A stretch of DNA of 64,000 bases from a virus: IMG/VR virus record IMGVR_UViG_3300018055_000001, positions 64,001-128,000 of that record. One strand, 5' to 3'. The position numbers and the translations under genes are program-made. The notes beneath the pieces were generated by a model. That model saw only the letters and a list, made by a program, of their open reading frames with translations. It was not told the DNA's origin and did not search any database. Shown piece after piece: positions 21,252 to 61,320 of the stretch (positions are counted from its first letter, which is position 1; each line of letters begins with the position of its first letter).

Positions 21252-21723
21252 TGGATCCTCCTAGGTGGCTTAGAGCGCTGGCAGGCGCCGTTACGATGCC
21301 TGATCTCTTCGCTGATCTGGCAGTCGCCGCTTGCTCTGCAGCTAGCTGAGCATTCTTGATGAACTCCTTATACTGGTCGAAGTCTCCACCTTGCTTGTTG
21401 AGGTCATCCAGGTAGTACAGGCTCGCCCCGGTGAGAGAGAACTGCGCTGGGCAGTTGTACATGGTCGAATCAAGTCTGGTGGAGTAGTGGATTTTACCTA
21501 CTGCCACTCCCTTGGGAGTTTGGTTCATCTGAATTGGGCATCCGAATTCGTAGGCTTCCAGGCACTTGATGACCCCTCCACGCTCGTGAGCAGCATCAAT
21601 TTCCTCCCGATCCCCGAGTGCTAACGCGATGTACTTGCCGATACCGCAGGTGAACGCAACCCAGCAGGTTTTCCTGCCCTCGGGTTCCATTTGCTCGTTG
21701 TCTGTTGACTCATTTGACTCCAT
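21226..21723 (-). CDS. Hypothetical protein after the helicase gene
   Basis: This 165-residue protein begins inside the 3' end of the helicase gene in another frame, with a good ribosome site (AAGGAGCTACGTCATG). It contains a strand-rich middle (CWVAFTCGIGKYIALALGD, VAVGKIHYSTRLDSTMY) and a Ser/Gly-rich end. The overlap with the helicase is about 100 bases. No family is recognised. Confidence 0.5.
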   Translation of the reverse strand: MESNESTDNEQMEPEGRKTCWVAFTCGIGKYIALALGDREEIDAAHERGGVIKCLEAYEFGCPIQMNQTPKGVAVGKIHYSTRLDSTMYNCPAQFSLTGASLYYLDDLNKQGGDFDQYKEFIKNAQLAAEQAATARSAKRSGIVTAPASALSHLGGSSGRGRSPF

Positions 21724-24272
21724 GACGTAGCTCCTTGTCTTCTCAATGTGGCGGGATGACCTATCAGGGTGTACCTGAATGGACCCCCTTCTTCGACCGG
21801 CCAATCCCGTAGGTGTCTTCGTAATTTCCGGCATTGCCCGATGAGTGGGGAAATGTCGTCCTCGAGGAATACTAGCTCTGAGTTGATCTTGTCCCGCGGA
21901 CGCCCCATGATCTGCTGCAGAGTGTTCCGGTCTGACATGGGCTCACTCACCACAATGGCAGAGAGTTTCTTGTCGTCCAACCCTTCCTTCCCGTACTTCA
22001 TGATGGCAAAGACAACCTGTCGTTCTCTCAGCATCTTGAACCTATCCTCTGGCTTTACAGCTTCTGTGAACAGTCCAGAGGTGCTAGGGGCGGCCAGCAG
22101 TGCACGAATGAACTGACGTTGCCTTTGGCGGTACAACTTCTCAGTTTTCTTCCACACTTCGAACTGACGAAGCAACAGCGAGTAGTTTTTCAGTCTTTCA
22201 TCGAACGCTGCACGCTTGGAGGCTGGCAAATTCTGCCTACTCAGATTGCGACGAATTTCGGCAATAGTCCCTTCGAGTCGTGTGGCCGCGGATGGTTTCA
22301 ACTCCACAGGGTTTACTGTTTCCCCAACATCGGTTGCTGTAGGGTACGGTATCTCAGAGTAGAGCAGTGCGTTGGGGTCTTGCGTGGTCCATAGCGTCAT
22401 GAGGTTGATGACTTCGTCCACCGAATACGACAGAACCAGAACTTTGTGCTTCATGGAAACTAGCCGTTGCACTTCGGGAAGTACAATGTTGACCATGCGG
22501 TCTCGGTTGCCTCCGAAGTGGCTGGCGATTTTGCCCAAATGGATTTCGCTGTTCTTGTCGCAGACGTCTTTCCTCACTACCTCGTCCTCGAGGTCTAGTT
22601 TGTACCCAGTCCATTTGAACGTAATGCTGGGCGGGCAGTTCTGGATGACATCTTTGAATATGATGTCACCCACGTGGTGCTGGCAAATGACGTGTGAGCC
22701 GTCCAGGCGTTCTGGTGTGGCAGTCAACGCCAAACGATAACCGTAAAAAAGAGGCGCGGACTTGGAGAACGTGGGTGCATTCACGTGGTGGCCTTCGTCC
22801 CAGATGACGAGTCCGAAGCGTCTTCGGATGTGCTCCGGCATTGTGTCGGCCCACCGTGCCAGGGTTTGGTAGGTGGCCATTACGATGTCTTTCTTCCAGT
22901 CCTTTATCTGGCCTTGTACCAGCCCGACCCCGCCGGGTACAACCAGATGCTTGGCAATCTCGTCCTGCCACTGGCGTAGCAGGTGCGTATTGTCTACGGC
23001 GATGATTGTAGGTACCTTCAATATGGAGGCTAAGTGAAGAGCCACCACCGTCTTGCCCTTGCCACAATTGTGCACCACTACTCCGTTGGCTACGAAGTTT
23101 CTGTGCGGGTCGGCGCAGACTAGGTCGTACACGTCCTCTACGCCGTAGTCAGCGATGGATATTAGTTTTACTACGGTTGGGATACCATGCCCAAATGCCT
23201 TAGATCCAGGTCGATGCTTAGCCAGGTGCTCTTCCACCAGCAGTATTTCTAGGTTATCTGGGGAGTTATTCCTGTAGTTTTCGTCTTTGTGGTGAACGTG
23301 GTACTTAGCAGGATCGATGAAGACCAATTCTTTGATGTCGCCCATGCGACATCGAGAACGGTATTGAGCTAGCGAAAGATGGTTGAGCGTGGCCTCGGCG
23401 ACTGCTCTATGCTCTTCCAGTACATATACCTGCTTTTTTCCTCGTTGCGGTCCGTTCTTGTTGCCATTCTTATGCGCAAATGGGTGGCATGCATACCAGT
23501 TGAGCCTTTTGTACACAGGTTTTTTCTGGTGAACGCTTGTCGGCCTTTTGGTAGTACCGCTGTCTACGACCACTAAGTGACCGGGGGAGAGACCATCCTT
23601 TATGGAAAGAAATCCTTGTGTGGTTAGTACCTCGTGGTCTCGCGTAATGCGTAGCTCTTTCCCGTCTGCCAGTTTGATGCGATAAGTTTTTCTCTGTCCT
23701 TTGTAGACGATGTTCCTTAGCGGCTGCAGGCCAATTCTGTCACCTTGGTGTGCCCTTACATAGGTGGGTATTCCGATGTCCCAGCTATATCGGTCGTGAC
23801 GACTATGAGCACGACTGAATGCCTCCTTTATGCTCATTCTGAACCCCTTACCGGCCCTATTCAGATTGAGCACGGTGTCACCGGATACGCAGGCCAATTG
23901 AAGCGTCCCCCCCATGGAGTTCAGGAGTGCTTCAATGGCCTTTGCCTGCAGATTGCTGCCCGTCTGTTGAAGAAGTCCCCCGGGGCCAGGCTTCATATCG
24001 AGGCAGATGTTGCTGCGGATGTCTGCCTTTGGGAAATAGTCCGGTCGGCAGTCGATGCACTGAAAGTTCAAGTCTTCTGGCTTCCAGAATGCGCGGGGAA
24101 CAATCAGGTGGTGCTCAGCTTCCCCCCAAAGTTGAAGCACCCTGATCATGCTGCGTTCCGGAAGCTCAAACTCGAGCGCGTGCTTCACTCCATCCACATT
24201 GATTTGGCTCTTGGGTATCCAAAGCATGTTTGAGATATAACCAAGATTGGGGTCAAGTTTTATTAGTTTCAT
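21621..24272 (-). CDS. SF2 DNA helicase interrupted by an intein
   Basis: The 883-residue precursor splices to about 608 residues. Helicase motif I is reconstituted across the intein as LA plus CGKGKTVVAL. Motif II is LVIWDEGHH, motif III LALTATPERLDG and motif VI QQIMGRPRD. This is the UvsW/RadD/T5 D10 type of superfamily 2 helicase, which remodels branched DNA and supports recombination-dependent replication. Without splicing the P-loop is split and ATPase activity would be lost. The C-terminal 60 residues overlap the next gene. The start follows AAGGGTG and overlaps the upstream homing gene by four bases. Confidence 0.85.
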   Translation of the reverse strand: MKLIKLDPNLGYISNMLWIPKSQINVDGVKHALEFELPERSMIRVLQLWGEAEHHLIVPRAFWKPEDLNFQCIDCRPDYFPKADIRSNICLDMKPGPGGLLQQTGSNLQAKAIEALLNSMGGTLQLACVSGDTVLNLNRAGKGFRMSIKEAFSRAHSRHDRYSWDIGIPTYVRAHQGDRIGLQPLRNIVYKGQRKTYRIKLADGKELRITRDHEVLTTQGFLSIKDGLSPGHLVVVDSGTTKRPTSVHQKKPVYKRLNWYACHPFAHKNGNKNGPQRGKKQVYVLEEHRAVAEATLNHLSLAQYRSRCRMGDIKELVFIDPAKYHVHHKDENYRNNSPDNLEILLVEEHLAKHRPGSKAFGHGIPTVVKLISIADYGVEDVYDLVCADPHRNFVANGVVVHNCGKGKTVVALHLASILKVPTIIAVDNTHLLRQWQDEIAKHLVVPGGVGLVQGQIKDWKKDIVMATYQTLARWADTMPEHIRRRFGLVIWDEGHHVNAPTFSKSAPLFYGYRLALTATPERLDGSHVICQHHVGDIIFKDVIQNCPPSITFKWTGYKLDLEDEVVRKDVCDKNSEIHLGKIASHFGGNRDRMVNIVLPEVQRLVSMKHKVLVLSYSVDEVINLMTLWTTQDPNALLYSEIPYPTATDVGETVNPVELKPSAATRLEGTIAEIRRNLSRQNLPASKRAAFDERLKNYSLLLRQFEVWKKTEKLYRQRQRQFIRALLAAPSTSGLFTEAVKPEDRFKMLRERQVVFAIMKYGKEGLDDKKLSAIVVSEPMSDRNTLQQIMGRPRDKINSELVFLEDDISPLIGQCRKLRRHLRDWPVEEGGPFRYTLIGHPATLRRQGATSWSQMSQQTTSKWNPRAGKPAGLRSPAVSASTSR
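23067..23891 (-). mobile_element. Intein with HNH homing endonuclease in the helicase P-loop
   Basis: Residues 128-402 of the precursor form a 275-residue intein. It begins with Cys (CVSGDTVL, block A), has block B with ITRDHEVLT, and ends with VYDLVCADPHRNFVANG and VVVHN, followed by Cys 403 as the first C-extein residue. These are the nucleophiles and the His-Asn pair of a class 1 intein. Between the splicing blocks lies an HNH nuclease core (YHVHHKDENYRNNSPDNLEI) rather than the more common LAGLIDADG domain. The insertion point is the conserved P-loop. Confidence 0.9.
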
Positions 24273-29266: not shown

Positions 29267-31345
29267 ATGAGTATTCCCGGCGCGATGAGTATGGGTGGTG
29301 TTGGTGCGGGTGGAGGCATGCGCTTTGCCGCCACACGTGGACGCATCAACAACGGGTTCAACCAGGGTGTCAACTACCCAAGCCCATTCTTCGATATCGC
29401 GCACACGTACCTGCCGGTCACGGTCAAGAACATGTTTCGTTGGTGCAGGTATTACTTTCTCACCAATCCGATCATCAATGCCACTGTGTTCAAACTTTCC
29501 GAATATCCCATTACGGAGATTCTCATCGATCACGAAGATAGCCGTGTTGCCGCGAAGTGGAAAGAGTACTTCGAAGACCATTTGAACTATCGCGCATATC
29601 AGATTGAATGCGGTCTTGACTACCATACGTACGGTAACTGCCTATCGAGTTTGAGCTTCCCGTTCAAGAAGTATTTGACCTGTGAAGGGTGCGGGCATCA
29701 GGCTGAGGCCAAGAGAATTCGCCCCCATTGGGTGTTCACGAACTTCGAGTTCAGGTTGAGTTGTCCCAGGTGCGGCCATCTTGGTACCGCCAAAGCCAAG
29801 GACATCTACTTCAAAAACGAGTCGGGTGTGCGCGTCATGCGTTGGAACCCGGAGGATGTTGAAGTCACCCACTCTGACCTGACTGGTGAATACACGTACT
29901 TCTACAACATTCCACCGACGATCCGAAACGATGTCATTATTGGCAAGAAGGATGCAGTCGAGAAGGTTCCCGAGGTCTTCGTTCAGGCATTGCGCCAGCA
30001 GAAGGGTGTTGTCTTCAACCAAGACATGTTCTTCCATTTGCGGCGGCCGACATTGGCTGACCAGGATCGTGGCTGGGGATTGCCGCTGCTTTTGCCTTGT
30101 TTGAAGGATACGTTTTACCTTCAGATCATGAAGAAGGCGCAGGAGTCCATTCTCCTTGAGCACATTCTTCCGTTGCGTATTCTCTTCCCGCAGGCGGGCT
30201 CTGGGACTTCAGACCCGTACACGACTATCAACCTCGTTGATTGGCGCGACCACGTGGCTACGGAAATTGCCCGGTGGCGCATGGATCCCAATTACATACC
30301 CATTCTCCCGTTGCCGGTAGGCAACCAGACGATTGGTGGTGATGGGCGCGCGCTGTTGATGGTGCAGGAGATGCAGACGTTGAGTGAGCAGCTCATCAAC
30401 GGCATGCAGGTTCCACTCGAATTCATCAAGGGTGGCCTGAGCTATGCGGGCACTAATGTGTCCATGCGCATGCTCGAGAATCAGTTCATCGTGTACCTAT
30501 CCCGGCATGAGCGCATGGCCAACTGGGTGATGCGACAAGTCGCGGATTACATGGATTGGCCTGTAGCGCACATTCGGTTCAAGCCGTTCAAGATGGCTGA
30601 CGACATTCAGCGTAAGGCCTACTTGTTCCAGCTCAACCAGGCGAACAAGGTCAGCGATACTACCCTTCTGGCGGACTCCGATCTCAGTCAGGAGAAAGAA
30701 GATCAAATCATGGAGCGCGAGACGTCCGCGCGCATGGCGGCTACTGAGAAGCAGCAGATGGCAATGGCAGAGCTGCAGGGTAAGCAGCAAGCCATCATGA
30801 TGAAGATGCAGGCCAAAGCGCAGCAAGAGGCGCAACAGGCAATGGTTGCACCAACAGCCCCCGGAGAGCCCGGCGGACCCGAGGCGGGGGCTGCACCTCC
30901 AGGCGGACAGAGCGGGGCACCCATGCCCATGCCCATGCCGATGCAACCAGGTGCTCCGCAAGCTGCAAACGATCCGATGGCAGCGGCACAAAGTCCACTC
31001 AATGCTGGCCAGAACATGGGTATGGCCAATGGCCCAGGTCCTGAAGGCCAGGCGATGCTCGGGGGTTCGAACATCCTCGCCATGGCGCAGACGATTGCCA
31101 TGCAGCTGGCACAGCAGGATCCTGCTAGTCAGATTTTGGCAATCAAGAAGCTTCGGTCTCAGTCACCCGAGCTAGCGGACTTAGTGCTTCAGTACCTGCA
31201 GACGATGCCCGGTGGAGCGGTGCCGCAGGAGCAACAGCAGGGTGGGATGCCTGGCATGGGCGCCAATGGAGCGGCGGCAGTTCAGGTCGATATGCGGCCA
31301 ATGCCTAATAAGCTCCCCCCTCGGCGAGCGGCATCTGCTGTCTAA
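29267..31345 (+). CDS. Portal protein
   Basis: This 692-residue protein should form the dodecameric portal ring at the head vertex. The N-terminal half has portal-like features (YYFLTNPIINATVFKLSEYP, then RWNPEDVEVTHSDLTGEY), and the middle contains NGMQVPLEFIKGGLSYAGTN and the MLENQFIVYLSRHERM helix typical of the stem-wing region. A four-cysteine zinc element (C139, C142, C166, C169) is inserted in the N-terminal domain, which is unusual. The C-terminal 200 residues are Gln, Met, Ala and Pro-rich. The assignment rests on pattern and size. The terminase lies 18 kb away. Confidence 0.7.
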   Translation: MSIPGAMSMGGVGAGGGMRFAATRGRINNGFNQGVNYPSPFFDIAHTYLPVTVKNMFRWCRYYFLTNPIINATVFKLSEYPITEILIDHEDSRVAAKWKEYFEDHLNYRAYQIECGLDYHTYGNCLSSLSFPFKKYLTCEGCGHQAEAKRIRPHWVFTNFEFRLSCPRCGHLGTAKAKDIYFKNESGVRVMRWNPEDVEVTHSDLTGEYTYFYNIPPTIRNDVIIGKKDAVEKVPEVFVQALRQQKGVVFNQDMFFHLRRPTLADQDRGWGLPLLLPCLKDTFYLQIMKKAQESILLEHILPLRILFPQAGSGTSDPYTTINLVDWRDHVATEIARWRMDPNYIPILPLPVGNQTIGGDGRALLMVQEMQTLSEQLINGMQVPLEFIKGGLSYAGTNVSMRMLENQFIVYLSRHERMANWVMRQVADYMDWPVAHIRFKPFKMADDIQRKAYLFQLNQANKVSDTTLLADSDLSQEKEDQIMERETSARMAATEKQQMAMAELQGKQQAIMMKMQAKAQQEAQQAMVAPTAPGEPGGPEAGAAPPGGQSGAPMPMPMPMQPGAPQAANDPMAAAQSPLNAGQNMGMANGPGPEGQAMLGGSNILAMAQTIAMQLAQQDPASQILAIKKLRSQSPELADLVLQYLQTMPGGAVPQEQQQGGMPGMGANGAAAVQVDMRPMPNKLPPRRAASAV

Positions 31346-31916: not shown

Positions 31917-32153
31917 TCACGCGTTCGCCACCTCAGACACTTGGCTGTTTGGCTGCGGCTGCGCTTTGTTTTGCTTTTGTACACTGCGCAGTCCGGTGAT
32001 TCGCCCAGCGACGAATACGGCGGCTGCCGTCACTAAGCCAATGGACGAATACATGATTACTGACCAGGTCTTTGACATGTTCTTCTTGTCGTAGCCGAGA
32101 TTGGCTACTTCTCCTCTACCTCTCTTATCCCTGACTTTTACAGGAATTTTCAC
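31917..32153 (-). CDS. Small single-span membrane protein
   Basis: This 78-residue protein has a basic N terminus, one transmembrane helix at about 31-50 (VIMYSSIGLVTAAAVFVAGR) and a polar Gln/Asn-rich tail. The GTG at 32153 overlaps the upstream stop as GTGA. An internal ATG 25 codons later is an alternative start just before the helix. Its position after the VWA gene may mean that it anchors or works with that protein. Holin-like function is possible but unsupported. Confidence 0.5.
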   Translation of the reverse strand: MKIPVKVRDKRGRGEVANLGYDKKNMSKTWSVIMYSSIGLVTAAAVFVAGRITGLRSVQKQNKAQPQPNSQVSEVANA

Positions 32154-36814: not shown

Positions 36815-36881
36815 CAAAGCTCTTATCTCGGTGTTTCTGCAGTCCTTGCGTATATTCCATGAGCATTCGCCTGGCCTGTGC

Positions 36882-36900: not shown

Positions 36901-39900
36901 ATGTCGTACTTGGACCCTGCCGAAGCTTTTGACCACTATCGAGACCGTTCCCTCGAGGCGATTAGAAAGCAGTTCCCTGTTGATGGCCGCAACCAAGTTC
37001 TGGACTTGGAGCATCTCGAGGTCCAAGACAACTTGGATCCAGATGACATTCGAAGTCAGCACCAAGCCAAGGTGACTGGGCAGACTTGGGGCGTTCCCGT
37101 TGTGGCTCATCTGGTGCTTCGGGACAAGCTCACTGGCAAAGAGGTGCGGGCGAAGACTCGAATAGCCGAGTTACCTAAAGTGACATGTCGGCATAGCCAG
37201 ATTGTATCGGGACAAGAGTATCAGGTAGACAACCAGTGGCAGTTGAAGCCGGGAGCTTACGTTCGACGCAAGCAGACCGGGCAGATCGAAACTCAGTTCC
37301 AATCATCCAAGAAGCCCTCATTCAAAGTTACATTCGACGATGACTCCAAGGAGTTCCGTGTGGAGTTTGGTACGAAGGCGCGTATTCCCCTGTACCCCCT
37401 GCTGGAGACTATGGGGGTGTCCGATACTGATCTGGAAAAGACTTGGGGTAAGGATGTCTTGGCAGCTAACAAAGGGGCACGAAATGTCGCCGGCGCCGTA
37501 GACAGTTTCTACCGAACAACTAAGCGCATGGATCCACCAACGCATGCGGCGGCAGTCGCCCATGTGACCCAGCATTTCAAGGAGTTCGATATGCGCCCGG
37601 ATTCCACGGCCGTGACCCTGGGTAGGCCTGTGGATCATGTGGATAGTGACGTGATGTTGCGAGCCACGAGGAAGATGCTCGATGTTCACGGGGGCGCCCC
37701 GTCTGATGATCGGGACTCTCTTGTATTCAAGGATCTTCGTAGTGTGGGGGATTTTTCCTTTGAGAAGATCAATCAGGAAGGTCCAGCGATTCGTCGCAAG
37801 ATGATGCGTCAAATCAATGACGCCACAAGCCCCAGGGATGTGGTTCGTCTTGAGGCGTTCAACAAACCTATCCGCGAGACGTTTCACAAGAATTCAGCGG
37901 CTCAGGTCGCAAAGCAGGTGAACCCGGTCGAGATGGTGTCAGCTGCGCAGCAGACTACGGTGATGGGGCCGGGCGGTATTCAATCAGAGAACGCAATTCT
38001 CGACGAGGTGAAGTTCGTCAATCCCTCGCACATGTGCTTCTTGGATCCAATCCACACCCCTGAAGGCAGCAAGACCGGTGTGACTTTACGTATGCCGCTC
38101 GGGGTGCGTAAGCACGGCAATGAGCCGCAGGTTCCTTTGTACAGTATGTCGACGGGGCAGATCGAGTATGTTGGCCCTGCCAAGTTTCTGAAGTCTCGCG
38201 TTGTACTTCCCGACCAAGTGGACTGGCATGGTGACCATCCCACACAGAAGGCTTCTACGGTGAAGTGGTCAGCTCCAGGCAATGAGATTGCCGAGGGGCA
38301 TCTGAAGGACGCTGACTACGTAATGCGGCACCCCTCGCAGTTCTTCAACGTCACAAGCAACCTCATACCGTTCGTCAACAACACCTCGGGTGGGCGAGCG
38401 TCCATGGCAACTCGCCACATGGAGCAAGCGATTTCCTTGGAGCACAGGGAAGCTCCATTGGTACAGGTCGGCACTGGTCGTGATTGGGAAGGCGCAAGTA
38501 CTTTTGAGGAAGTTATCGGGACTCAGGCCTCACATAGGGCCCCTGTCGCTGGTGTAGTGAAGAAAGTTGGGAATGATTCAATCGTGGTGACCGGGCATGA
38601 CGGGCACAACCATGAAGTGCAGATTTATCGGAACTACCCTCTGAATGATGCCAAATCTGTCCTCGACTCCACATCGTTGGTGAAAGAAGGGGACCGTGTC
38701 AAGAAGGATCAGGTAATTGCAGATACGAACTTCTCCAGGAAGGGCGTCATAGCGCTTGGAACGAATCTGCGTGTCGGGTACATCCCCTACAAAGGGTACA
38801 ACTTCGAGGATGGAGTTGTAGTCAGTGAGAGCGCAGCCAAGAAGCTGAGCAGTGTGCATTTACACAAGCACAACTTGGCCGTGGATGACGATACGGTGCT
38901 GGCCAAAGGCAGATACCTGACGCAGCACATTGGGATGTACAACAAGGACCAGGTAAGTTCCATCGGGGACGATGGTGTTGTGCGTGTGGGCACCCGCGTG
39001 GTTCCAGGGGATCCCCTAATACTGGCGATGAAGAGAACCAGTACCCAAGATAGAACAGGCTTGTCCGCTATTCGGAAGAGTCTAGGGGATCAATACATTG
39101 ACCAGTCACTAGCCTGGCATGGGGAAGGACCCGGTGAGGTTGTAGGAGCCTTCCGTAGAGGCGGAGAGGTGGTTGTTCACATCAAGGCTATTGAGCCAAT
39201 GCAAGTGGGCGACAAAATCGCCGGGCGCTATGGAAACAAGGGCATCATCACAAAAGTAGTTCCTGACAAAGAAATGCCGCATACGGCAGACGGCAAGCAC
39301 ATTGAAGTAGCCTTGAACCCCTCTGGTGTTCCAGGTCGAATGAACGTCGGACAGGTACTCGAGACAGCCGCCAGCAAGATAGCTAAGAAGACTGGCAAGA
39401 CTTATGTAGTGAATAACTTCAGCGTTCCCAATCAGCTTGCGAAAGTACAACGCGAGCTGAAGGAGCATGGCATCAGTGATACAGAGGATCTATTTGATCC
39501 AGTGAATGGGCAAGACTTGGGACCGGCGCTGGTCGGGTACCAGCACATGATCAAGCTCCATCACCAAGTTGACAAGAAAGTGTCGGTGCGTTCGGGATTG
39601 AATCTTCCTGGGCATGAGGCTGGGAAGTACGACATCAATTTGCAGCCATCTGGGGGCGGGCACGTTGGCGGGCAGTCCATGGACCCATTGGGCCTTTATG
39701 CGATGTTGGCCCACGGCGCCCGCGCGAACATTCGGGAAATGCAGACATGGAAGAGCGAGGGCCCGGACATGTCGTCGAGTCCTCAGAAGCAATGGCAAAG
39801 TCAGCACCATGATGTGTGGGATGCCATTCAGCACGGGGATCCATTGCCGACCCCCAAGCCTACTTTCGCCTTCAAGAAGTTCACAGACATGCTGGTGGGC

Positions 39901-42900
39901 GCTGGTATCAATGTCGAGAAGAAGGGTCATACGTTTGTACTTTCGCCCCTTACCGACGCGCACATCAGGGCTCTAACAGAGAATCGTGTACTCACCAAGC
40001 CTGCTGAGATGCTTTACGCAAAACTCGATCCCAAGACTGGGGAACCCAAGCCCAAGCCCGGTGGGCTGTTTGACGAGAAGCTCACCGGCGGACATGGCGG
40101 CAAGAAGTGGAGTCGTATTGAGCTAGCTGAGCCAGTGCCGAATCCTGTTTTTGAAAGTTCAATCAGAGCTATCACAGGGTTGAGCGCTGACGACTATGCG
40201 GGGCTGGTAGAGGGGCGAAAGGCCATAGATGCTGCAGGTAAGGATGTTCCGTTGGGCAAGGGCCTCACTGGAGGATCTGCTATTTACCATCTGCTATCTG
40301 GGGTGAACGTGGACAACGAGCTGTGTTCAGCAAAGAAGCAGTTGTCGGCTGCCCCGGTCTCGAAGGTCGACGCCCTTTTGAAGAAGGTGAAGAGGCTGCA
40401 GGCTTTGCAGCAGGCGGGGTTGGCTCCGGCCGAGGCCTACGTGTTGCGCAGTATTCCAGTGCTTCCTCCTGCAATGCGCCCTATTCCTGTTCTGCCAGAT
40501 GGTAATTTCAAGGTATCGGATATCAACCAGCTTTACTCTCAGTTCTCCCAGTTGAATACGCAACTCCAGGACCCCACCCTTGTTGGGAACTTGACGGAAG
40601 AGGCCAAGGCACCACTGCGCGCCGGGCTGTACGACGGGGTGAAGGCTTTGATGGGGGTAGGTATCCCGTACGGCGATGCAAAGCATAAGGGGTTACTACA
40701 TCAGATCAAGGGGGCGCAGCCCAAGACCGGCTATTTTCAAAGCACACTTATCAGCCGCAAGCAGGACTTGAGTATGCGGTCCACCATCGTTCCAGAGCCG
40801 TCATTGTCATTGGACGAGGTTGGGCTGCCGGCGGAACATGCCATGAAGTTGTTTGCCCCCTTTGTGGTGGGGCAGTTGAAGAAGTCTGGAGTAGCTGCCA
40901 CCGTGTTAGACGCTCAGCGCCTCGTGGCTAAGAACACGGTGTCTGCCCAACGTGCGCTGAGGACGGTGCTAGAAGAACGGCCTGTGCTGCTGAAGCGCGA
41001 TCCGGCATTGCATAAATACAGCGTGCAGGCGTTCAAGCCCAAGATTGTTGAAGGCAATGCCGTCAAGATCCATCCATTGGTAACTGGTGGATACAACGCA
41101 GATTTCGACGGTGACACCATGAGCGTGTTCGTCCCCATCAGTGATGAGGCTGTCGCCGAGGCTCGCAAGATGTTTCCTTCGAACAACTTGTTCAGCGAGG
41201 CATCAGGTAGGGCGATGTATCAGCCCACCTTGGAGTCTGCACTCGGCTTGTACAAGCTGTCTCGTGTGAATGAGGCGTCGAAAGTGCACGATATGCCCCA
41301 TCCTGCAGACGCCTTGGTGGCAGTGCAGCACGGGAAATTGGACGTGAATGACAAGGTTCGTGTCGGTGGGCAGGTGACAACCCCTGGGAGAATCCTCATG
41401 GCTGCGGCGCTTCCTGAGCCCATGCAAGGGAAACTCTTGTCCGATTTGAGCTTGAGGTTGAATAAGAAGGGGTTGGATAAACTCCTTACGCAAGTCGGCA
41501 AAGAGCACAGCGGGGACTACGGATCTGTTGCTGACAAGTTGAAGGACATTGGGAATGGTGCAGCCAGTGGCGTGGTCACTGTGGAGCACGATGGCTACGT
41601 TGGGTCTGACAGGCTTGATCCGTCAAAGCGTATGTACATCCCAATTGGGGTACATACATTGAGTCTGGCCGATCTCACCCCGGACATTGCCACAAGGGAA
41701 CGTGTTCTTGCACCTGCGCGAAAAGAGGCCGAGGCAGTACGCAACAATCCTCACATGCAGGGCGCCAAGGGTGATCGAGAGCTTGTGCGTATTTGGAGTG
41801 AAGCTTCCAACAAGATGCAGCATGAGCATCTTCTTCGCCACGCCGATAACCCTAGTAATCTGATGACCATGCACCTAGCCGGCGTGAAGCCGGATTGGAA
41901 CCAGTACAAGCAGCTCACGCTAGCTCCGATGCTTGTGAAGGATGCTTCCGGCCGAGTTATTCCTACGCCTATCACCAAGAGTTACGCTGAAGGCTTGGAT
42001 ACTGGGGAGTACTGGACGCAAATGCACGGCGCTAGGCACGGGGCTGTGATGAAGGTGCAAGAGGTGCGAGAGCCCGGTTACTTGTCGAAATTGATGATGG
42101 CGAACACCATGGACATGGTGGTGTCGGGTCCAGATTGTGGGACCACTCGAGGGATTTCTCTGCCCATCACTGACGACGATGTTCACGACCGCTTCTTGCA
42201 AAAGGATTTCAGCTCAAAGGGAATGCAGGTAGCTGCAGGCACCTTGCTGACTCCTGACATTGTGTCAAAGATGCGTGTGGCGGACAAGAGCGCCAAGATT
42301 GAAGTGCGCAGTCCTTTGAAGTGCGAGCATGCGAAGGGTATTTGTCAAAAGTGTATGGGCATCTCTGCCAATGGCCACTTGCACTCCATAGGGGAGAATG
42401 TCGGGGTTGTAGCAGCTCAGTCCTTGGGCGAACGCGCCATGCAGTTGACTCTGCGCGTGTTTCATACTGGAGGTTCCGTCGATACTGGTGGCGGCTCTAA
42501 GATGCTCGGTGGGTTTGACCGTTTCAACCAGCTGATGACGCTTCCGAAGCCCAAGCCAGGGGATCCCACCGTGGCCGCAGTTGCCATGCGGTCAGGGATA
42601 GTGGAGCGTGTCGAGAAAGATTCCACTGGTGTGAATGTTTACGTGGGTGGCCGCAAGCACCACGTGGGTAAAGACGTCGGGGGCATCCCGTTGTGGCGTC
42701 CAGCTGCGGATGAACCTGTGGCAGGTTGGGTTCCTCCCCACATAGGGATGCATGTGGAGAAAGGCCAGCTCCTGAGCGACCCGCGTCGAACTATCGTGAA
42801 CCCGCACGATCTGTACAAAGCCACTGGCAGTATTGAGTCAGTTCAAAACTACATGGCAGATGAGATCCATCGCTTGTATAAGGACGAGGGAATCAAGCGT

Positions 42901-43308
42901 GGGCACATCGAGACGGTCGTGAAGGCGATGAGCAATCTCACGAAGATTCGAGAGCCAGGTGATCACGAAGGAGTTCTGCGTGGGGAGTTTCATCCCACAT
43001 CTGTCATCAGCGCCATCAATAGGGATTTGTCCCGGCAGGGCAAGAGGCCCATAGAGCATGAACCAGTCCTGAAGGGCGTGGAGATGATGCCGTTGTCCCT
43101 GCAGGAGGACTGGATGGCAAAGATGCAGCACGAGAGGCTGACGGACACCGTGCTGGACGCGGCAAATGTCGGAGGGAAATCGAACTTGCATGGGCTGCAT
43201 CCAATTCCCGGAATGGCGTATGGCGCCGAGTTTGGGTTGACTTCTGACCATGCCAAGGGAAGATTATCGTTGTCCCACCTTCATGATGTTCCGAGGCACG
43301 CCTACTAA
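36901..43308 (+). CDS. Single-chain beta-beta' DNA-directed RNA polymerase
   Basis: The 2135-residue chain carries both large subunits of a multisubunit RNA polymerase in the order beta then beta'. Beta features: VMGPGGIQSEN and DPIHTPEGSKTGV (about 355-395), KGYNFEDGVVVSES (631-644), GDKIAGRYGNKG (770-781, with both catalytic-centre lysines). Beta' features: GGLFDEKL at about 1055, MRSTIVPEP, NADFDGD at 1399-1405 with the three Mg-binding aspartates, a bridge-helix-like MKVQEVREPGYLSKLMMAN, a zinc site in CEHAKGICQKC, and a trigger-loop-like AQSLGERAMQLTLRVFHTGG. It is much shorter than a bacterial beta plus beta', having lost N-terminal lobes and the beta' N-terminal zinc domain. No alpha, omega or sigma gene is seen. 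Confidence 0.93.
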   Translation: MSYLDPAEAFDHYRDRSLEAIRKQFPVDGRNQVLDLEHLEVQDNLDPDDIRSQHQAKVTGQTWGVPVVAHLVLRDKLTGKEVRAKTRIAELPKVTCRHSQIVSGQEYQVDNQWQLKPGAYVRRKQTGQIETQFQSSKKPSFKVTFDDDSKEFRVEFGTKARIPLYPLLETMGVSDTDLEKTWGKDVLAANKGARNVAGAVDSFYRTTKRMDPPTHAAAVAHVTQHFKEFDMRPDSTAVTLGRPVDHVDSDVMLRATRKMLDVHGGAPSDDRDSLVFKDLRSVGDFSFEKINQEGPAIRRKMMRQINDATSPRDVVRLEAFNKPIRETFHKNSAAQVAKQVNPVEMVSAAQQTTVMGPGGIQSENAILDEVKFVNPSHMCFLDPIHTPEGSKTGVTLRMPLGVRKHGNEPQVPLYSMSTGQIEYVGPAKFLKSRVVLPDQVDWHGDHPTQKASTVKWSAPGNEIAEGHLKDADYVMRHPSQFFNVTSNLIPFVNNTSGGRASMATRHMEQAISLEHREAPLVQVGTGRDWEGASTFEEVIGTQASHRAPVAGVVKKVGNDSIVVTGHDGHNHEVQIYRNYPLNDAKSVLDSTSLVKEGDRVKKDQVIADTNFSRKGVIALGTNLRVGYIPYKGYNFEDGVVVSESAAKKLSSVHLHKHNLAVDDDTVLAKGRYLTQHIGMYNKDQVSSIGDDGVVRVGTRVVPGDPLILAMKRTSTQDRTGLSAIRKSLGDQYIDQSLAWHGEGPGEVVGAFRRGGEVVVHIKAIEPMQVGDKIAGRYGNKGIITKVVPDKEMPHTADGKHIEVALNPSGVPGRMNVGQVLETAASKIAKKTGKTYVVNNFSVPNQLAKVQRELKEHGISDTEDLFDPVNGQDLGPALVGYQHMIKLHHQVDKKVSVRSGLNLPGHEAGKYDINLQPSGGGHVGGQSMDPLGLYAMLAHGARANIREMQTWKSEGPDMSSSPQKQWQSQHHDVWDAIQHGDPLPTPKPTFAFKKFTDMLVGAGINVEKKGHTFVLSPLTDAHIRALTENRVLTKPAEMLYAKLDPKTGEPKPKPGGLFDEKLTGGHGGKKWSRIELAEPVPNPVFESSIRAITGLSADDYAGLVEGRKAIDAAGKDVPLGKGLTGGSAIYHLLSGVNVDNELCSAKKQLSAAPVSKVDALLKKVKRLQALQQAGLAPAEAYVLRSIPVLPPAMRPIPVLPDGNFKVSDINQLYSQFSQLNTQLQDPTLVGNLTEEAKAPLRAGLYDGVKALMGVGIPYGDAKHKGLLHQIKGAQPKTGYFQSTLISRKQDLSMRSTIVPEPSLSLDEVGLPAEHAMKLFAPFVVGQLKKSGVAATVLDAQRLVAKNTVSAQRALRTVLEERPVLLKRDPALHKYSVQAFKPKIVEGNAVKIHPLVTGGYNADFDGDTMSVFVPISDEAVAEARKMFPSNNLFSEASGRAMYQPTLESALGLYKLSRVNEASKVHDMPHPADALVAVQHGKLDVNDKVRVGGQVTTPGRILMAAALPEPMQGKLLSDLSLRLNKKGLDKLLTQVGKEHSGDYGSVADKLKDIGNGAASGVVTVEHDGYVGSDRLDPSKRMYIPIGVHTLSLADLTPDIATRERVLAPARKEAEAVRNNPHMQGAKGDRELVRIWSEASNKMQHEHLLRHADNPSNLMTMHLAGVKPDWNQYKQLTLAPMLVKDASGRVIPTPITKSYAEGLDTGEYWTQMHGARHGAVMKVQEVREPGYLSKLMMANTMDMVVSGPDCGTTRGISLPITDDDVHDRFLQKDFSSKGMQVAAGTLLTPDIVSKMRVADKSAKIEVRSPLKCEHAKGICQKCMGISANGHLHSIGENVGVVAAQSLGERAMQLTLRVFHTGGSVDTGGGSKMLGGFDRFNQLMTLPKPKPGDPTVAAVAMRSGIVERVEKDSTGVNVYVGGRKHHVGKDVGGIPLWRPAADEPVAGWVPPHIGMHVEKGQLLSDPRRTIVNPHDLYKATGSIESVQNYMADEIHRLYKDEGIKRGHIETVVKAMSNLTKIREPGDHEGVLRGEFHPTSVISAINRDLSRQGKRPIEHEPVLKGVEMMPLSLQEDWMAKMQHERLTDTVLDAANVGGKSNLHGLHPIPGMAYGAEFGLTSDHAKGRLSLSHLHDVPRHAY

Positions 43309-44582
43309 TGCCTAGACAAGGACTCAAAGCGGCGCGCGGCGCGCGGATGCCGAACACAGAGTTTCGGTCATCCATGACCACGCCAGAAGGTCTAGGGAAG
43401 ACCGACATCTTTTTGGGGCGCGTAGTGAATGTCGATCTGGTGAACTACACCGTTGATGTATTTAGCCAGTTCGATCAGATGCGTTGTTTTCAAATAGCGG
43501 TGGGGTCACCTTACTTGCACTCGAATCGTGGAGACGGCTTTAGCGTCATGCCAGAGGTTGGCTCAAAGTGTGCAGTCTGTTGGCCTGGTGATAGTTCACC
43601 ACCCTTTGTGCTGGCTTTTGTGATGCCACACGAGACAATCCCTATGGCTACTAGCCCTGACGCCACTGATGGCACCACGAGTCATGGCAGCGACAACCAG
43701 GCCGCTACTGCAGCGAGTTTTGCTGGGGGTAGGCCTGTGGCGAAGCCTGGTGACATGTTTGTGCGTGGCCGGGATGGGAATTTCATTGTATTGCACCGTG
43801 GCGGAGTTCTTCAGATAGGCAGCAACGAGCTGTCTCAGCGCATCTACGTTCCGCTCAACAACATGGTGATGGATTTCGCTGAGAATTATGCGATGCACAC
43901 CGCTGGTGGATCCATCAAATGGGGCATACATGAGGGCGAGGGCGTAACGAATCTACCCACGGAGTACAGGCAAGCTCTTCGAGTTTATGCGAACGACAAG
44001 TATGCTGATATCCGCATCGCGGCAGGGCGTGTGCATGATCCTGTACCAGAGACGGACCAGGACGGTATCACTGATCAACAGATGGCGTTTGGCAGCGGTA
44101 GCACTGAGCCAATCGTGTACGAGTTGACGTTGGCGCGTGGGGGCTTCAACGGAGAGGATGGATCTCTTCTGCCCAGCACTGGATCCTTAGTGAAGTTGAA
44201 GTTCTCGTTTGATCGAGCGGGTAACGCCTTTCTGAAGTTCAATGGCAATGTCGGAGTGCTGTGCACAAAAAGGCTGAGGCTCAGGGTAAAGCAGGCGATG
44301 GAGATTTTTGCGGATAGCACATTCAACATGAGTGTGAAAAGCGATGCCAAGGTCACTGTGGGGGGTACCTTCGAGATCACTGGTGCCACCGTCAGGTTCA
44401 ATGGCGGCAAGAGCCCCATCGCTACGGTCGGATCGTCGGTGACCAGCACTCTTCCTCCGAATCTGCTCATGGTGAGTCCGAGCCCGCCAGGGTTTGCCCC
44501 CATCAGTAGCATGCCCATGCTGATGACAATCACAGGCTCAATCACTAGCGGTGATCCAACGCTACTTGGTAATGGAGGATAG
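43308..44582 (+). CDS. Baseplate spike protein with OB-fold and beta-helix
   Basis: This 424-residue protein begins with an OB-fold-like domain (about 32-110: GRVVNVDLVNYTVDVFSQF, GDGFSVMPEVGSKCAVCWPG) as in phage gp5/gp45-type spikes. It continues with an extended beta region containing AMEIFADSTFNMSVKSDAKV and TFEITGATVRFNGG, the repeat style of a trimeric spike beta-helix. It should sit at the tip of the tail and puncture the outer membrane. It overlaps the RNA polymerase stop by one base. No lysozyme domain is present. Confidence 0.65.
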   Translation: MPRQGLKAARGARMPNTEFRSSMTTPEGLGKTDIFLGRVVNVDLVNYTVDVFSQFDQMRCFQIAVGSPYLHSNRGDGFSVMPEVGSKCAVCWPGDSSPPFVLAFVMPHETIPMATSPDATDGTTSHGSDNQAATAASFAGGRPVAKPGDMFVRGRDGNFIVLHRGGVLQIGSNELSQRIYVPLNNMVMDFAENYAMHTAGGSIKWGIHEGEGVTNLPTEYRQALRVYANDKYADIRIAAGRVHDPVPETDQDGITDQQMAFGSGSTEPIVYELTLARGGFNGEDGSLLPSTGSLVKLKFSFDRAGNAFLKFNGNVGVLCTKRLRLRVKQAMEIFADSTFNMSVKSDAKVTVGGTFEITGATVRFNGGKSPIATVGSSVTSTLPPNLLMVSPSPPGFAPISSMPMLMTITGSITSGDPTLLGNGG

Positions 44583-49353: not shown

Positions 49354-49639
49354 TTTTGGGTGGCGAGTACTCGGCTAGCATTTCGATGTAGCCACGCTTG
49401 TGGACGAGTCCAGTCACTTTCCAGTGGGATTTTCTTGCGTAGCTATGGATGTACTTGGCAGCAATTTTCCAAATAGATGGGTCGATCTTTTGAGCAAGTC
49501 GCAATGTAATCTTGAAACCCATCCCATCCGGGTTTACGGTTGCTTCATCACCCCAATGTCCATCTGCAGCTCTCTTGAGCGACCCCCACATGTTTTGAGT
49601 CAGTACCTGCGGGTTCTTGGTAGGTTCTGGGGGGAACAT
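49241..49639 (-). CDS. Small basic protein antisense to the terminase approach
   Basis: This 132-residue frame fills a gap with no plus-strand gene. It encodes a plausible folded protein (NPDGMGFKITLRLAQKIDPS, WKIAAKYIHSYARKSHWKV) with a long basic, Pro/Glu-rich C terminus. Its ATG lies one base from the terminase ATG on the other strand, and its 3' end overlaps the upstream plus gene by 113 bases. No good ribosome site is seen. It could be a chance ORF, but composition favours a real gene. Confidence 0.45.
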   Translation of the reverse strand: MFPPEPTKNPQVLTQNMWGSLKRAADGHWGDEATVNPDGMGFKITLRLAQKIDPSIWKIAAKYIHSYARKSHWKVTGLVHKRGYIEMLAEYSPPKTKKKWNGRRLRRVPGQEPKKTEEQKPPDQASSQTRQP

Positions 49640-49640
49640 A

Positions 49641-51473
49641 ATGGCCGCTGCTGAGGTTTATCCGGATGATCTTTCGGAGCATCCTGACGATACTGGGGTT
49701 GATGGTACCCCGTTATCTGAGGAGGAGCTACAGAAAATACAATTTGGCGGATACTGGGTACCAGAGGCTGAGAAGTACGAGGACTTTTTCGAGGATGAGT
49801 TTACCCCGAGCAGCGTCATCGAAGCCCCTCCGCAGATTCTTCCATCGAGGTTTACCGAGTACGCATTTCGCATGCCCACTCCTGATGGGTATGAGAATTT
49901 CTCGTTTGAAGGACGCCGGCATCTTCGTCAAATTTACGACACTCCGATCAAGCGTGTTCTGCTCATGTGCGGGCGCCAGGTGGAGAAGTCCACGCTACTC
50001 GGCAATCGATCTCTAAGTTATTGCTGCCTCATTCCGTCCTACAAGGTCTTGTACGTCAGCCCTTCGGCGACTCAGACCAAGACGTTCTCCAATGACCGTA
50101 TCAAGGAGCCTATTGAAACCAGCCCGGTGCTGCGGGCGTTCACGACGCACATGCTCTCGCAGAATATCTTCGAGAAGCAGTTCATCAATCGCTCGAAGAT
50201 TACGCTGCGCAACGCCTTTCTAAATGCTGACCGTGCCCGCGGTGTCCCTGCCCACATGTTGGACATCGACGAGCTGCAGAACATCCTGTCTGACAACATA
50301 CCTGTCATTGAGCAGTGTCTCTCCCATTCACCGGAGGAGATGAAGCGATACGTCTACTCTGGGACGCCGCTCACGCTGGACAATGTCATCGAGGAGTATT
50401 GGTCGAATCGCTCCACGCAGAACCAATGGGTTGTCCCTTGTGAATGTACTGGCGGTGAAGGTGGCCGCTTCTGGAACATTCTTGGGGAGAAGAACATCGG
50501 GCTGAAGCACCTCATCTGTGAGCGTTGCGGTAAGCAGATTCACCCGATGACCCCTGACGCGCAATGGGCCTGCTCTGTCGAGCATGATCCAGTGCACACT
50601 CCATTCGAAGGGTTTCGTATCCCGCAGCTCATGGTTCCATGGCTCGACTGGGATGAGCTCCTTTACAACTTCGAGCATTATGGGCGCAACAAGTTCTACA
50701 ACGAAGTGCTTGGTATCTCGTACGACACCGGGTTACGTCCTCTCACGAGTGCGCAGATTCGAAATTGTTGTAACGAGAACGTCTTCATGGCAGACGCCCA
50801 CAAGTACCAGGCAATGGGCTTTGGGCAGGAAATCTTTGCTGGAATCGACTGGGGCACAGGGGAGCACAGCTATACGGTGCTCAGCCTTGGCACATACATC
50901 GGCAGCAAGTTCAGGATCTTTTACATCCATCGCTTCGTGGGAGAGGACACAGAGCCTGAACGCCAGCTGCAGAAGATCGAGGAGATTTGCCGGGCTTACA
51001 ATGTTCGAATCATCGGGGCCGACTACGGTGGTGGCCACTACCCCAACGACTTCCTTGTGCGTCGTTTCGGCCGCGAGCGCGTCATGCGCTACCAGTACGC
51101 GGCACGCTTGTCCGCCAAGGTCCGCTGGGAGAGCAAGCTCCAGCGCTGGATAGCACACCGCACTGAGGTAATGAGCGCCATCTTCAACTCGATCAAGCGC
51201 GGCACTGTCTTTGAGTTTCCTCGTTGGAAAGAGTTCAAGGCCCCTTATGGCCAAGACATGTTGAACATTTTCAGCGAGTACAACGAGCGTATCCGCATGA
51301 TTCAGTACGGTCACACAGCAGGTAAAACCGACGACGGCTTTCACTCGATCTTGTATTGTTTCTTGGCCTCCATGATTACGAAGCCGCGCCCTGACGTTAT
51401 TGCCCCGAGCAAGGATGCCAACGCTGTGGGGAGTGTTTGGTCGTCGTATTCGGGCACAACCTACCAAGGGTGA
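49641..51473 (+). CDS. terL: Terminase large subunit
   Basis: This 610-residue packaging motor has an N-terminal ATPase with a P-loop in CGRQVEKST (110-118, K116-S117, with Glu where Gly is usual) and Walker B MLDIDELQ (D210-E211). A cysteine element (CECTGG and CERCGK) lies between the domains. The C-terminal RNase H-like nuclease has D403 in GIDWGTG, D461 in GADYGGG and D564-D565 in KTDDGFH. It cuts concatemeric DNA and drives it through the portal. The ATG at 49641 follows a G-rich ribosome site. The frame is open to a TTG at 49617. Confidence 0.9.
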   Translation: MAAAEVYPDDLSEHPDDTGVDGTPLSEEELQKIQFGGYWVPEAEKYEDFFEDEFTPSSVIEAPPQILPSRFTEYAFRMPTPDGYENFSFEGRRHLRQIYDTPIKRVLLMCGRQVEKSTLLGNRSLSYCCLIPSYKVLYVSPSATQTKTFSNDRIKEPIETSPVLRAFTTHMLSQNIFEKQFINRSKITLRNAFLNADRARGVPAHMLDIDELQNILSDNIPVIEQCLSHSPEEMKRYVYSGTPLTLDNVIEEYWSNRSTQNQWVVPCECTGGEGGRFWNILGEKNIGLKHLICERCGKQIHPMTPDAQWACSVEHDPVHTPFEGFRIPQLMVPWLDWDELLYNFEHYGRNKFYNEVLGISYDTGLRPLTSAQIRNCCNENVFMADAHKYQAMGFGQEIFAGIDWGTGEHSYTVLSLGTYIGSKFRIFYIHRFVGEDTEPERQLQKIEEICRAYNVRIIGADYGGGHYPNDFLVRRFGRERVMRYQYAARLSAKVRWESKLQRWIAHRTEVMSAIFNSIKRGTVFEFPRWKEFKAPYGQDMLNIFSEYNERIRMIQYGHTAGKTDDGFHSILYCFLASMITKPRPDVIAPSKDANAVGSVWSSYSGTTYQG

Positions 51474-52309: not shown

Positions 52310-52355
52310 GAGCTTATGCTCCTTCCACCTTTCTTATCCCCGAAAGTCGGAGGTT

Positions 52356-60201: not shown

Positions 60202-61320
60202 ATGTCAGTTCCGGCGAGCGTTATGAACGAGCTCTTTGCTTCCAAGCTCAGTACGAGCGAAGGCAAGGAAAAGATCGCCGAGTATGGTGGTTCCTACATT
60301 CGTGACCGCCTCCGTGAGGTGAGCTTTGCCCGCAAAGTCATTCCGCCGGAGCAGGTTACGCGTGCCGACTGCCAGCGCTCGGTAAACCACGACACCCTGG
60401 TCAAGATTGTGGACATCGAGCCGCAGTCTCGCGCCATGTCGATCACGTTCCGAGGGCAACCCCAAGCCCGCTTCATCCGAGGCGACAAGGCCGAAGTTGC
60501 TTTCTACACCATCAGCTCTGAGATGTTCCAGAAGACGGAGCAAGAGCTCTTGGCGTATGAGATGCCCATCACCAAGGTCATCGAAGAGAACAGCGTCAAG
60601 GACATCCAGGAGATTGAGGACCGTGAGTTCACGATCCACATCGAAGCTGCGGTGCAGGCACTGCAAACCGAAGCCAACGGCGGAACGCCCGCGGCTTTGC
60701 ACGTTGGAACCATCGGCGCGACCGTCGAGTTCTCCGTCCGCAAGGGCGAGCTCGCACGCAACGCCTTGGCCAACAGTGCTGAGGTGCTTCCAATCCAACG
60801 CCCCGACCTCGTCAACCTCTTCAAGATGTTGGACGGGAACCGACTGCGGTCCGAGCGCATGCTCATGACCGAGGTCGATTGGGACGACGTCCTCCAATGG
60901 ACGGTGGAAGACGTTGGTGACCGCGTTCAGTCTGAGACTACGGTCGACGGGTACAAGTACAACACTCTGCTGGGTCGTTCGTACATTCGTACCATCAAGA
61001 CCGACATTCTCCGGCCGGGCAACGTCTACATCTTCACCAAGCCTGAGTTCTTCGGGAAGTTCTACGTTCTGAACAACACGAAGTTCTATATCGACAAGAT
61101 CGCGAATACGATCACGTTCCAGGCCTGGGAAGACATTGGCATGTCGGTGGTCAACATTGCTGCAGTCCGAAAGCTCGAGCTGTACGCTGGCGATGCGAAC
61201 CCCACCACGGACGCCGATGGGCTGCTTACCAACTTCATCCCGAAGTCGGAAGACGCACTGGGTGCGGTAAACAACCGCGTGGCCGAGGGATTGAAGTTCC
61301 CGCAAGTCTCCCAGTTCTAG
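60202..61320 (+). CDS. Major capsid protein
   Basis: The 372-residue protein has the size and layout of HK97-fold capsid proteins. It has a helical N terminus (IAEYGGSYIRDRLREVSFAR), an E-loop-like beta segment (RAMSITFRGQPQARFIRGD), a long spine-like helix region and a C-terminal strand set ending YIDKIANTITFQAWEDIGMS and VVNIAAV. The ribosome site is strong (AAGGAGATACCCA). Codons look optimised, as expected for the most abundant protein. It is followed by the best stem-loop terminator in the window. It contains no K-T-A motif, so any processing would differ from its neighbours. Confidence 0.8.
   Translation: MSVPASVMNELFASKLSTSEGKEKIAEYGGSYIRDRLREVSFARKVIPPEQVTRADCQRSVNHDTLVKIVDIEPQSRAMSITFRGQPQARFIRGDKAEVAFYTISSEMFQKTEQELLAYEMPITKVIEENSVKDIQEIEDREFTIHIEAAVQALQTEANGGTPAALHVGTIGATVEFSVRKGELARNALANSAEVLPIQRPDLVNLFKMLDGNRLRSERMLMTEVDWDDVLQWTVEDVGDRVQSETTVDGYKYNTLLGRSYIRTIKTDILRPGNVYIFTKPEFFGKFYVLNNTKFYIDKIANTITFQAWEDIGMSVVNIAAVRKLELYAGDANPTTDADGLLTNFIPKSEDALGAVNNRVAEGLKFPQVSQF

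Follow-up and report, generated by a model that had tools for sequence, protein, structure and literature searches.

A predicted one-chain beta-beta' RNA polymerase, probably carried in the virion, in a large and little-studied phage family

Natural fusions of rpoB to rpoC, running from beta into beta', are found in Helicobacter/Wolinella and Wolbachia, where they are cellular enzymes that work with host alpha, omega, and sigma subunits. Here we analyze a gene for a fusion of the same order in a virus. The gene, whose product we call P0001, lies in a 64,000-nucleotide stretch of DNA, referred to as the window (positions 64,001 to 128,000 of IMG/VR virus record IMGVR_UViG_3300018055_000001). 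The full record is 186,879 bp long, and positions outside the window are given in record coordinates with the prefix G000. An original prediction, made from the letters of the window alone, had proposed a phage-encoded single-chain beta-beta' RNA polymerase among virion genes.

Tailed phages that encode cell-like beta and beta' are already on record as the multi-subunit RNA polymerase (RNAP)-encoding Caudovirales (mReC; Weinheimer & Aylward 2020, PMC7481178). The likeness to mReC extends to tailed phages, to cell-like beta/beta' sequences that branch apart from bacteria, to a source in IMG/VR, and to virion genes nearby, but the text on mReC has neither a one-chain form nor a sigma factor and mentions fusion for crAssphage only (PMC7481178). 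The marker families differ as well: mReC are marked by capsid PF07068 and terminase PF03237 (PMC7481178), whereas the terminase in this phage and in each of the 20 related records is PF05876, not PF03237, and the capsid protein here has no Pfam match. PF07068 was found in 0 of the 20 records, in a search whose control also found nothing, and no more than 8 capsid proteins are reported for mReC (PMC7481178). Because the capsid and terminase families differ, we do not assign this phage to mReC; the 97 mReC contigs may overlap this family.

In phiKZ-type phages, which also encode relatives of beta and beta', one form of the enzyme is packaged and injected for early genes (PMC7598289), but it is assembled from at least five or four polypeptides (PMC7598289) without a sigma homologue (PMC13282480), in place of the one chain seen here. 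The crAss-like and P23-45 virion RNA polymerases do hold both barrels in one chain, are virion-borne, and serve early transcription (PMC10770324). The crAss-like enzymes, however, are highly diverged and do not match cellular RpoB/RpoC profiles (PMC7481178), and that of P23-45 is joined to the tail tape measure (PMC10770324). P0001, one chain with bacteria-like domains, is a true beta-beta' fusion of neither the phiKZ-like nor the crAss-like kind, as had been proposed. Among open-licence PMC papers we found none describing a one-chain form in this lineage, and in that literature the one-chain form, its pairing with a virion sigma, and the promoter class discussed below appear undescribed.

The named relatives are one phage of Salmonella, Arash (Yousefi et al. 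2023, PMC10585845), and three of Vibrio, D69, D148, and D181; Arash and D69 are cultured. With these the present phage shares its portal, capsid protein, terminase, polymerase with a beta-beta'N fusion, and a homologue of the virion sigma gp10. The differences are that the C-terminal part of beta' (beta'C) is a separate gene in these relatives, where beta-beta'N is one gene except for the split in D181 noted below, and that P0001 is only ∼31% identical to the Arash polymerase. The Arash authors label gp206 "beta" and gp216 "beta'"; in our alignment, gp206 also holds the beta' catalytic barrel.

The polymerase gene and its parts, as placed by an alignment of P0001 with other phage chains and with RpoB/RpoC of Escherichia coli and other bacteria, are as follows.

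36901..43308, + strand: single-chain beta-beta' RNA polymerase P0001, 2135 amino acids (open frame, Pfam Rpb2/Rpb1 domains, single-chain relatives)
36901..39915, + strand: beta part, residues 1-1005; the junction is good to within a few residues
39208..39243, + strand: GDKIAGRYGNKG, residues 770-781, carrying both active-site lysines of the beta double-psi barrel; E. coli has GDKMAGRHGNKG at the aligned place
39916..43305, + strand: beta' part, residues 1006-2135
41095..41115, + strand: NADFDGD, residues 1399-1405, the metal-binding aspartates of the beta' double-psi barrel

The open frame spans 36655 to the stop at 43308, and the ATG at 36901, which gives 2135 residues, is preceded by a GGAG ribosome site and agrees with the N-termini of relatives (MSYLDP/MAYLDP). 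A Pfam search, of the kind the original prediction had called for, matched beta domains followed by beta' domains: Rpb2_3 at residues 335-396, Rpb2_6 at 551-898 (4.7e-57, the best beta match), Rpb1_1 at 1149-1224 (under its cut-off), Rpb1_2 at 1287-1424 (6.8e-31, the best beta' match), and Rpb1_5 at 1698-1876 (2.1e-21). Thus the single 2135-residue frame with beta and beta' motifs is borne out, and the lysine region and NADFDGD both fall at the residues first given for them. Around residue ∼1006, the beta C-terminal GINVE joins the beta' N-terminal LSPLTDAHI..., the counterpart of E. coli beta' LASPDMIRS..., directly and without a linker. P0001 and every other phage sequence aligned lack the zinc ribbon at the beta' N-terminus, while the cysteines of the second zinc site (CEHAKGICQKC) and a trigger-loop motif, LTLRVFHTGG, are retained in the beta' part. 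The E. coli rifampicin-contact positions H526, R529, and S531 are A, Q, and T in P0001, and insensitivity to rifampicin is therefore predicted.

An AlphaFold2 (AF2) model of residues 480-1600, covering both barrels and the junction, reached a predicted local distance difference test score (pLDDT) of 85.6 and a predicted template modelling score of 0.76. Searched against the PDB with Foldseek, this model matched bacterial beta chains (E ∼1e-36) and beta' chains (E ∼1e-34), each match covering ∼600 aligned columns; the double-psi beta-barrel pair, whose lack the original prediction would have taken as refutation, is thus recovered on both sides. The evidence for two double-psi barrels, with the beta lysines and the beta' NADFDGD, comes from Pfam, alignment, AF2, and Foldseek together. 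By sequence and predicted fold, P0001 is a member of the cellular-type multisubunit RNA polymerase (double-psi-barrel) superfamily, and the same two lines of evidence indicate a catalytically complete DNA-dependent RNA polymerase with beta and beta' in one polypeptide.

A search of IMG/VR returned at least 195 related stretches, of which 79 loci were retained, and most loci that cover the whole gene are single-chain (tens of contigs from viral metagenomes); a megablast of the region against phages gave no match. The fused polymerase is a feature of a large, little-studied phage family and not the oddity of one isolate. Because dozens of independently assembled contigs share the open chain, neither chance nor a sequencing artifact, such as a missed frameshift or stop, accounts for it, and we are close to certain that P0001 is a real, conserved one-chain RNA polymerase. 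In a FastTree phylogeny of 49 sequences (phage chains and sampled bacteria, without archaea, Helicobacter, or published mReC sequences), the bacteria, Patescibacteria among them, cluster together and separate from the phage chains, the type of branching reported for mReC. This bears on whether P0001 is an ordinary recent capture of host rpoBC, for example of the fused Helicobacter type that has the same gene order, or a decaying copy. Given the separate grouping, an identity to bacteria of only ∼27-29%, and intact frames with conserved catalytic residues in tens of contigs, we consider such an origin highly implausible. Two other candidates were set aside: Spirochaetota contig L106 scored like a relative of the phages, yet its rpoB and rpoC are ordinary separate genes, and the entry "Acinetobacter phage MD-2021a" (H7) proved to be an rpoBC operon from bacteria. 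RNAP matches in three records filed as phage, CAKLQH020000005.1 (checked) and AFYI01000006.1 and AGRM01000005.1 (annotation only), resemble bacterial chromosomal rpoB-rpoC.

In about a dozen loci, in-frame insertions break up the polymerase at as many as five sites close to conserved motifs (residues ∼390, ∼774-784, ∼808, ∼1405, and ∼1855). LAGLIDADG or homing-endonuclease signatures occur in all 10 inserts tested and a weak intein-splicing match in 2, and the inserts look like inteins (loci L040, L048, L051, L058-L060, L062, L070-L073, L078, L079, and L081). In D181 (L004 4513-5411), a homing-endonuclease gene divides the beta part at about residue 495. Such interruptions, together with the separate beta'C of Arash and D69, would fit a chain that is cut into beta and beta' (or spliced) after synthesis, leaving no one-chain enzyme in the particle. 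P0001 itself, however, has no intein, its junction carries neither insertion nor linker, and the beta-beta' join is retained even where beta'C has split off, all of which make later cleavage improbable. Elsewhere in the family, terminase frames of ∼940-1055 amino acids (G002, G008, G010, G011, G012, G015, and G017, versus ∼610-640 in other members) and portal open reading frames (ORFs) of 3.3-5.9 kb (L058, L071, L078, and others) suggest inteins in those genes too.

The statement that no alpha, omega, or sigma gene is visible holds for the window and fails for the genome, in which two sigma-family genes lie outside the window. The first (G000:177055-177825), for a protein of 256 residues, is orthologous to Arash gp10 and gives a region 3 match of 1.3e-11 and a weak region 4 match (0.026); region 2 gave a weak match, in Arash gp10 only. 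The gp10 family is present in 19 of the 20 related records, the exception being a 150-kb fragment. The second (G000:15706-16899) has the sigma-70 family regions 2, 3, and 4 all above cut-off. It also carries an extra N-terminal helix-turn-helix, and several relatives have no close match to it. A search of 18 records for alpha (PF01193) found none, and omega was not searched for; T7-like polymerase PF00940 was not found either, in a search whose control likewise found nothing.

Direct data on the particle come from Arash. By liquid chromatography-mass spectrometry of its virions, gp206 (beta-beta'N) gave the most spectra of all proteins (3516, from 128 peptides), exceeding the capsid protein, with gp216 (beta'C) at 1210 and sigma-like gp10 at 467 (PMC10585845). 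When these counts are roughly scaled to protein length, without calibration, gp206, gp216, and gp10 have 2.3, 2.0, and 2.0 spectra per residue, which is compatible with similar amounts. Arash also has a DNA helicase gene, gp217 (L003 26103-27521), directly after beta'C, with 1148 virion spectra (PMC10585845); no equivalent was found directly after the polymerase in the window.

The lineage shares a promoter-like motif, GGNATAAG. A k-mer scan of G000 upstream regions alone gave nothing above shuffles, and the motif surfaced only with true intergenic regions and relatives. Arash has 31 copies of GGTATAAG against ∼5 expected (maximum 8 in 20 simulations), 30 of them on the minus strand; most stand 30-60 nt ahead of a start codon that has its ribosome site. 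The present genome has 10 copies of GGGATAAGA, all on the minus strand, and D69 has 19 of GTTATAAG, 18 on the minus strand. Across the 20 records, GGKATAAGWRA has 64 matches (7 for the reversed control), with 57 on the strand opposite to the polymerase and 7 on the same strand. Within 300 nt upstream of the polymerase, GGNATAAG stands on the opposite strand in 28 of 65 distinct regions and on the same strand in none; an equal stretch inside the polymerase gene has one. On account of this strand bias, GGNATAAG marks the non-structural strand. Copies in the window are given below.

32121..32131, - strand: promoter-like motif GGGATAAGAGA
52330..52340, - strand: promoter-like motif GGGATAAGAAA, ∼30 nt before a 54-residue minus-strand ORF with a ribosome site
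36820..36829, - strand: variant GAGATAAGAG, in the gap that precedes the polymerase gene and pointing away from it, a weaker match at a place where relatives have GGNATAAG

A TATACT upstream of the polymerase was also considered as a late promoter and rejected, as it is too weak and confined to the nearest relatives.

We infer from these sequence patterns that RNA synthesis starts at GGNATAAG and is carried out by this polymerase with this sigma. A mixed arrangement, in which the chain needs host sigma or alpha, or in which host polymerase is steered to GGNATAAG by the phage sigma while the phage polymerase does something else, would agree with the failure to find alpha and with a motif that is -10-like, its Arash form TGGTATAAG resembling an extended -10 element. 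Yet the last base is G, not T, at most Arash GG-TATAA intergenic sites (18 G, 2 T), the motif is common to phages of Salmonella, Vibrio, and environmental hosts, and a sigma-like gene accompanies the polymerase in 19 of 20 records; we regard a mixed arrangement as rather doubtful.

The original prediction had left open whether the enzyme is packaged and injected or serves late transcription. Packaging is favored over a late role because the Arash orthologues are in virions and the motif avoids the virion-gene strand, and we judge it likely that P0001 is a virion-packaged one-chain RNA polymerase that works with a phage sigma to transcribe early genes. In this scheme, the polymerase is probably packaged with the small sigma at G000:177055-177825, and both would enter the cell with the DNA, as suggested by the virion proteome of the relative and by conserved gene linkage. 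Transcription would then start at GGNATAAG-type promoters ahead of non-structural genes expressed early, whose strand is opposite to that of the virion genes. The fusion would dispense with alpha and omega for joining beta and beta', and, more speculatively, the second sigma (G000:15706-16899) or the host polymerase may serve other gene classes. In this scheme, transcription would be largely independent of the host.

Several observations weigh against packaging for early use. The position in a late-type operon fits packaging but equally simple late expression; motif counts are uneven, with no exact GGKATAAGWRA in 5 of the 20 records; and host polymerase, guided by a sigma of either the phage or the host, could read a -10-like motif. 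The virion data are from Arash only, with its separately encoded beta'C and ∼31% polymerase identity, and its list of 116 virion proteins includes replication enzymes (PMC10585845). The Arash authors allow that abundant polymerase may co-purify with particles (PMC10585845), and such carry-over would be expected if the enzyme were a non-virion polymerase for the late structural genes, a role that its place in the virion-gene block and the presence of a second sigma would also suit. Other points speak against that role: gp206 exceeds the capsid protein in spectra, and beta'C and sigma come close to gp206 when counted per residue; the motif of the lineage avoids the strand of the structural genes; and late operons are a suitable source for a packaged enzyme. 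We therefore hold a late, non-virion role to be unlikely.

We are evenly divided on the broader proposal that a widespread lineage, with a polymerase on a deep branch, injects a two-protein holoenzyme of one-chain beta-beta' and small sigma that reads GGNATAAG without alpha, omega, or host subunits. If true, one chain and one sigma would make the simplest system for studying full-size multisubunit-type transcription, would inform the question of how beta and beta' came to be fused or separated in the past, and may explain immediate cell takeover by a large uncultured phage group. The cultured relative Arash offers direct tests through its virion content, rifampicin response, and promoter motif.

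The surroundings of the polymerase agree with the placement first proposed, among portal, spike, and terminase genes, as judged from homologues and PHROG/Pfam matches.

29267..31345, + strand: portal protein gene upstream of the polymerase, homologous to Arash gp204 portal (1e-86) and D69 141221-143002 (2e-95)
43308..44582, + strand: tail-spike-like gene of the membrane-piercing type, sharing one base with the polymerase stop
49617..51473, + strand: large terminase of the GpA ATPase type (phrog_675, 5.7e-57; PF05876)
60202..61320, + strand: major capsid protein (phrog_2522, 1.8e-13; homologue of Arash gp226, 1e-34)

Portal homologues occur in 66 locus ORFs, and 68 ORFs homologous to the spike-like gene adjoin the polymerase; its AF2 model, of low confidence (pLDDT 71), resembles R2 pyocin spike and proteins of the VgrG type. 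The minus strand holds replication genes and, at 21621-24272 of the window, an SF2 helicase gene interrupted by an intein (PF14890, 3.3e-10) with an HNH endonuclease match.

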